Shown: piece after piece, positions 40,533 through 40,728 of the stretch | Position numbering within the stretch: the first letter of the stretch is position 1 | How the letters are laid out: the number at the start of each line of letters is the position of its first letter | Source of the DNA: Polycladomyces zharkentensis | GTDB lineage: Bacteria > Bacillota > Bacilli > Thermoactinomycetales > JIR-001 | Length of the DNA stretch: 64,000 nt | Direction: 5' to 3' | Assembly (NCBI RefSeq): GCF_016938855.1 | Contig: NZ_JAFHAP010000011.1 | Location: forward strand, 1 to 64,000 | Notes under the pieces: model-generated | The model's database searches: none | The model's input: the letters and a program-made list of their open reading frames with translations, nothing else | What the model was told of the DNA's origin: nothing | Made by a program: the position numbers and the translations under genes

Positions 40533-40561
40533 TTGCCAAATCGGCGGCAAGGTTGTACAAT
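40533..40561 (+). promoter_or_regulatory. Promoter of the orphan 5S rRNA gene
   Basis: TTGCCA (40533–40538) and TACAAT (40556–40561) are 17 bp apart. The expected start of transcription falls within a base or two of the mature 5S 5' end at 40570. Confidence 0.75.
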
Positions 40562-40569
40562 CAATCCTG

Positions 40570-40686
40570 TCTGGTGGTGATAGCGGAGGGGAACCACCCG
40601 TTCCCATTCCGAACACGGAAGTTAAGCCCTCCAGCGCCGATGGTACTTGGGGCGGGAGCCCCCGGGAGAGTAGGACGCTGCCAGGC
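40570..40686 (+). rRNA. rrf: 5S ribosomal RNA, orphan
   Basis: About 117 bases match the Bacillus 5S pattern. The start TCTGGTGGTGATAGCGG pairs with the end CGCTGCCAGGC. CCGTTCCCAT, CCGAACACGGAAGTTAAG, AGCGCCGATGGTA and GAGAGTAGGACG are all present. No 16S or 23S sequence is near. It has its own promoter and terminator. Confidence 0.97.
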
Positions 40687-40691
40687 AGAAG

Positions 40692-40728
40692 AGGCGGTTC
40701 GCTGATAGGCGGACCGCCTGTTTTTTTG
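40692..40728 (+). terminator. Rho-independent terminator of the 5S gene
   Basis: AGGCGGT (40692–40698) pairs with ACCGCCT (40713–40719), then seven T. Confidence 0.88.

Follow-up and report, generated by a model that had tools for sequence, protein, structure and literature searches.

A conserved stand-alone 5S rRNA gene with promoter and terminator signals of its own in Polycladomyces and related genomes

The 64,000-nucleotide stretch of Polycladomyces zharkentensis DNA analysed here (called the window) contains a complete 5S rRNA gene that stands alone in the interval between secG and rnr. Judged from sequence comparison, this orphan gene is likely to be a functional, autonomous 5S unit that would supply ribosomes and, where it is present, would relax the need for the 5S genes of the rRNA operons. 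It is flanked by promoter and terminator signals which recur in the same slot in three families of the order, and among the 23S gene ends that were counted, those lacking a 5S gene were found in orphan-bearing genomes.

The 5S gene and its transcription signals

The initial annotation had described a complete 5S gene standing alone between secG plus an esterase gene and the rnr region, and this description holds. The gene matches the Rfam model RF00001 over its full length (40570-40686, plus strand; model positions 1-120, 111.5 bits, E 1.1e-23, cut-off 38), and blastn at E <= 1e-10 detected no part of a 16S or 23S gene in its vicinity. The local gene order is secG, hydrolase 1, 5S, an ORF of 130 amino acids, hydrolase 2, rnr, smpB and ssrA, with the following features:

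39459..39692, plus strand: secG, upstream anchor of the slot (Pfam PF03840; order kept in relatives)
39794..40525, plus strand: alpha/beta hydrolase, esterase 1 (Pfam PF12146; stop codon 7 nt before the -35 hexamer)
40533..40538, plus strand: -35 hexamer TTGCCA (promoter scoring)
40556..40561, plus strand: -10 hexamer TACAAT after a 17-nt spacer (promoter scoring; placement kept in positional orthologs)
40569..40569, plus strand: predicted transcription start, G (8th base after the -10 hexamer, one base before the 5S)
40570..40686, plus strand: 5S rRNA gene, 117 nt (Rfam RF00001, 111.5 bits)
40692..40719, plus strand: terminator hairpin of 12 pairs, 8 of them G-C (T tract 40721-40727)
41595..42374, plus strand: alpha/beta hydrolase, esterase 2, downstream anchor (Pfam PF12146)
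42334..44649, plus strand: rnr (RNase R), downstream anchor (Pfam PF00773, PF17876, PF08206)
45690..46049, plus strand: tmRNA (ssrA), anchor for locating the slot elsewhere (Rfam RF00023, 220.2 bits)

The rnr ORF overlaps esterase 2, so that the true rnr start is probably internal. The 130-aa ORF (40879-41271), located between the 5S gene and hydrolase 2, is without a Pfam match, and a search of the slot region gave matches to it in the three genomes of the genus only.

Standard pairs are formed at 32 of the 34 Rfam consensus pairs of the orphan 5S, the same number as in the operon copies of two congeners (G001, G002). For the predicted RNA 40569-40728 the computed fold is stable (-77.4 kcal/mol, z -4.08); in it, helix I is closed and the terminator forms a hairpin of its own. 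The free-energy fold alone pairs helices II and III differently from the 5S consensus, and the consensus 5S form of the orphan is therefore taken from the Rfam match and not from this fold.

A sigma-A-type promoter, TTGCCA-17-TACAAT (40533-40561), sits in the 44-nt gap 3' of the hydrolase gene. It scores 10/12 and is the better of two promoter-like sites within 2 kb; shuffled sequences contain on average 1.2 such sites per 2 kb, so that a match of this kind could arise by chance and was not accepted as proof by itself. As previously noted, the -10 hexamer ends nine positions before the 5S gene (40561 versus 40570). Downstream, the hairpin at 40692-40719 is followed by the letters GTTTTTTT. A G at position -1 was considered as a hallmark of the orphan and rejected, since the operon 23S-5S spacers displayed likewise end in G.

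From this arrangement, sigma-A RNA polymerase would initiate at G40569, one base ahead of the mature 5' end, or at a neighbouring base, and the product would be a short RNA of about 160 nt ending after the hairpin. RNase M5 or exonucleases would then have to trim the 3' tail but hardly anything at the 5' end, where the cut would take off about one base, if it occurred at all. In Bacillus subtilis and Listeria, operon-made 5S depends on RNase M5 for its mature 5' end, according to the accessible part of PMC12774634. The rnmV gene for this enzyme is present in the window's own genome (G000 C14:72141-72662, 157.7 bits, cut-off 110.65). A match at E <= 0.001 was obtained in 41 of the 42 genomes of the order, in G038 with a score below the cut-off, and none in G008 at this threshold; absence of RNase M5 as the cause of the promoter placement was thus ruled out.

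Stand-alone 5S genes and rRNA operons across the order

Conservation of the site had been suggested as a check by the initial annotation. Relatives were reached by whole-genome searches (a contig scan with esterase 1 gave only two distant loci), with tmRNA as the anchor, and the region upstream of it was retrieved for the rest of the order (41 genomes) and for 18 of 19 genomes elsewhere in the class, all but G047; several of the retrieved stretches end at contig ends. A stand-alone 5S gene is present in the secG-rnr interval in 21 of the 42 genomes of the order, the window included, and these belong to three families (f1, 3 of 3 genomes; f3, 8 of 10; f5, 10 genomes); G022, whose contig stops just past its slot 5S, is counted among them. 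The slot is readable and empty in 16 genomes (two of f2, two of f3, one of f4, three of f6 and eight of f5) and unreadable in five (G024, G028, G029, G037, G041). Outside the order, no slot 5S was found in 18 genomes of the class, with secG and rnr both in view in 15 of these. In a tree of four proteins f1 joins f6, then f3, then f5, with one f5 genome, G038, placed elsewhere. This distribution probably fits a single entry of the unit into the secG-rnr interval before the three families split, in which case the 16 empty slots would imply repeated loss.

G015 holds two slot copies, which brings the total to 22. This pair lies about 1 kb apart (C17:176787-176903 and 177777-177893), with promoter-like sites of 10/12 and 8/12 and a terminator-like hairpin behind each copy.

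In the 22-contig assembly of the window's own genome (window in contig 11), the orphan is the sole 5S match. 16S and 23S occur there only as fragments of about 60-140 nt, none complete, so that the number of 5S genes cannot be read from this one match. Contig C9 opens with the 29-nt 3' end of another 5S (28/29 identical to the orphan), followed by tRNA-Asn. Stretches inside contigs C7 and C3 are identical to 16S over 110 nt and to the beginning of 23S over 139 nt; without N around them, these may be real fragments or misassembly.

The initial annotation had allowed for a layout in which the rRNA operons of all relatives lack 5S. The relatives do not show this layout: in the genus, all operons seen carry 5S, four of four in G001, the one assembled operon in G002, and one at a contig edge of the window's own genome. 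The orphan would therefore be an extra copy here, acting as a dosage supplement, and with all four G001 operons complete, the genus could apparently do without it. The 23S:5S numbers of closed or nearly closed genomes are 4:5 in G001, 4:4 in G003 (no orphan), 7:7 in G020, 4:4 in G025 and 4:3 in G023; a strict balance of 5S and 23S numbers was ruled out by these values.

Across the order, 33 genomes had a usable 23S end, and a 5S gene was scored when it lay within 300 nt. Ends with a contig stop at or below 75 nt past 23S were dropped (G022, G024, G032, G037, G039), an isolated 42-nt 23S fragment in G004 was left out, and seven genomes had no countable end (G000, G011, G014, G019, G031, G033, G041). 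In orphan-bearing genomes, 40 of 51 ends have a 5S gene, nine lack it and two have an interrupted 5S; in the other genomes, all 42 ends have one. Counted by genome, a 5S-less end occurs in 8 of 18 orphan-bearing genomes and in 0 of 15 others (Fisher p 0.004, related genomes being treated as independent), three of the 15 (G028, G029, G037) having an unreadable slot and the remainder giving 0 of 12. Including the interrupted 5S genes, the numbers are 10 of 18 versus 0 of 15 (p 0.0005, kinship ignored).

The nine 5S-less ends, from eight genomes, are followed by tRNAs, seven of them by Asn-Thr-Glu-Val and two by Ser-Phe-Thr-Trp. The gap between 23S and the first tRNA is 65-173 nt at eight ends and 613 nt at the ninth. 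Four of these ends are in G020, G023 and G025, and five lie at draft contig edges with a minimum of 46 nt of 23S visible (G021). Three sister contrasts in the tree agree with the link (G016/G026, G040/G035 and G004+G019/G015).

These counts bear on the strongest of the alternatives, namely that the orphan only supplements 5S dosage and has nothing to do with operon decay, its co-occurrence with 5S-less operons being an accident of shared ancestry. We consider this rather unlikely. The intact 5S genes in every operon seen in the window's own genus agree with it, and the association does rest on related genomes; against it stand the 0 of 42 5S-less ends in orphan-free genomes versus 9 of 51 in orphan-bearing ones, and the Asn operon, which lacks 5S in G012 and has kept it in G017 of the same genus, so that the losses were not all one event. 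If the orphan is instead an autonomous unit that relaxes the need for operon 5S, the operon copies would be less needed wherever it is present and some operons would have lost theirs or had them interrupted, and in its own genus, where the operons seen retain 5S, it would act as a dosage supplement.

Several further irregularities were seen in rRNA genes of these genomes. An operon 5S gene of G026 (C38) carries a 49-nt insert near the three-way junction, and one of G035 (C23) has a homologous insert at the same site (93% over 42 nt) plus a 52-nt insert in loop C. Part of the G035 insert recurs without mismatch in G017, in two stretches of 18-20 nt at 4617-4687 that lie about 120-190 nt away from the orphan; the stretches shared by these two genomes may represent a mobile palindromic element. 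In G023, each of the four 23S genes is divided into two matching blocks by an intervening sequence of about 355 or 430 nt. The lone 42-nt piece of 23S 3' end in G004 (C4:14943-14984) has no 5S behind it. In G042, from another order, 5S copies lie at C1:3585318-3585434, 3589284-3589400 and 3528275-3528391; there is a single 23S match, and of the 5S genes one separates 16S from 23S, another follows 23S and two lie elsewhere. Since runs of N lie beside some of the copies, operons may be missing.

Conservation of the unit and its sequence

Promoter and terminator of its own had been attributed to the gene from the window alone, and both sets of signals recur in the positional orthologs. In 16 of 21 scored stand-alone copies the best promoter reaches 9/12 or more and its -10 hexamer ends 8-9 nt before the 5S (shuffled upstream regions, 1.6%), and the second copy of G015 (G015b) reaches 8/12 at the same distance. 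For G025 and G034 the scorer chose more distant sites (22 and 27 nt); inspection by eye shows TACTAT and TAATAT at 8 and 7 nt with a TTG box at 17 nt (7/12 each), and the unscored G022 copy has, again by eye, TATTAT 8 nt before the 5S. The -10 hexamer is farther away, at 12-15 nt, in G010 and G030. It thus ends 7-9 nt before the 5S in 20 of the 22 copies, three of them judged by eye, which strengthens the earlier proposal that the transcript would start nearly mature. The best promoter score in 21 operon 23S-5S spacers from 11 genomes was 8/12. A terminator-like hairpin was found in all 21 scored copies and in 18% of shuffles.

We also made the comparison with operon 5S genes that the initial annotation had proposed. 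Within one genome, orphan and operon 5S differ at 0-10 positions, and the changes mostly keep pairing. For 19 orphan copies, each compared with one operon copy, the changed pairs comprise nine compensatory changes, 11 one-sided changes with pairing kept and three non-standard cases, none of which converts a standard operon pair into a non-standard orphan pair; 32 changes are at unpaired positions. At pair 17-62, a change from G-C to A-U is common to the orphans of G012, G017 and G025 and absent from their operon copies. In G001 the orphan has T15 and the operon 5S C15, and in the window's own genome T110 is specific to the orphan. Among the sequences compared, 13 of the 19 orphans are closest to an operon copy of the same genome, ties included, and the other six to the orphan of another genome. 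The proximity to the own operon copy in these 13 suggests gene conversion between orphan and operon 5S copies.

The same data speak against the view, which we regard as improbable, that the orphan is a drifting remnant without a role, left behind when an rRNA operon was deleted or duplicated in part. In favour of this view are the closeness of orphan and operon 5S and the empty slot in 16 readable genomes; on the other side, 16S and 23S stretches were not found in the regions examined (blastn E <= 1e-10), the promoter placement and terminator are kept across three families despite diverged flanks, and pairing is mostly preserved.

Even less probable is that the 5S part acts otherwise, for example by stabilising the secG-hydrolase mRNA at its 3' end or as a regulatory RNA. 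The promoter begins 7 nt past the hydrolase stop codon, so that read-through would place the 5S at the end of that mRNA. The upstream gene, by contrast, varies by family (the f5 genomes are without a separate esterase 1), as does the distance to secG, while promoter, 5S and terminator stay constant; moreover, E. coli is viable without free 5S, which rules out an essential extra-ribosomal role in that species (PMC7283268, accessible part). That a repeat copy was placed at the slot by an assembly artefact is scarcely credible, since the own assembly does leave the rRNA operons unresolved but the same place is occupied in the single-contig genomes G001, G023 and G025.

Known stand-alone 5S genes and implications

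Stand-alone bacterial 5S genes, surplus 5S and, as a count, an extra copy in Polycladomyces are already known. The genome paper of Polycladomyces abyssicola JIR-001 counts "1 additional 5S rRNA gene" (PMC8210696), which resembles the congener G001, where four operons are accompanied by one further 5S in the same slot; that paper gives the count only, and place, promoter and conservation are not covered (PMC8210696). The 5S dosage exceeds that of 16S and 23S in about 20% of sequenced bacterial genomes, as stated in the accessible part of PMC7283268. An extra 5S is thus less unusual than the initial annotation implied in stating that Bacillales 5S genes are usually in rRNA operons. The same portion of PMC7283268 lists 13 copies in Syntrophomonas wolfei and a second 5S in E. 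coli rrnD, both likewise cases of more 5S than 23S genes; what it describes there are counts and a duplicate within an operon, not a conserved separate unit tied to the loss of operon 5S. The term 'orphan 5S rRNA' has reportedly appeared in print for Francisella (PMC2737636, PMC3479022).

The stand-alone oversized 5S of Desulfallas gibsoniae also lies outside the rRNA operon with signals of its own (PMC7812874, in the text accessible). That copy is described there as displaced and expanded, its signals having been acquired accidentally, whereas the orphan described here is of normal length and conserved in place, with its promoter set close to the gene. With regard to the expanded 5S of Stepanov and Fox (PMC7812874, same text), the operon 5S genes of G026 and G035 likewise carry inserts and the orphan has none; its core of 117 nt is without insert, and it is thus not an expanded 5S. 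The order is absent from the orders with expanded 5S in the abstract of PMC7812874, and the main text, as far as accessible, is without Bacillales or Thermoactinomyc.

Searches of open-licence PMC (titles and abstract starts) yielded no paper on a conserved stand-alone 5S in Thermoactinomycetaceae or its link to 5S-less operons, and no comparable case of bacterial operons without 5S. Likewise, no papers were found in open-licence PMC for Thermoactinomycetaceae with 5S rRNA or for Thermoactinomyces with intervening sequence and rRNA. The conserved slot, the promoter placement and the link to 5S loss in operons appear to be new.

Co-transcription is generally held to keep bacterial 5S and 23S equal. 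If the orphan is the autonomous unit proposed here, its 5S would enter 50S subunits alongside operon-made 5S. We put forward only tentatively, as a possibility with the odds against it, that 5S supply in these bacteria is starting to separate from the operons, with its own control, little or no 5' cut by RNase M5 and an operon 5S that becomes dispensable one operon at a time; in eukaryotes, 5S is transcribed separately, a parallel to this separation. A clade with a separate 5S gene and some operons minus 5S constitutes a natural test of the need for 5S/23S linkage, and natural sequence marks could let the 5S in ribosomes be counted by source.
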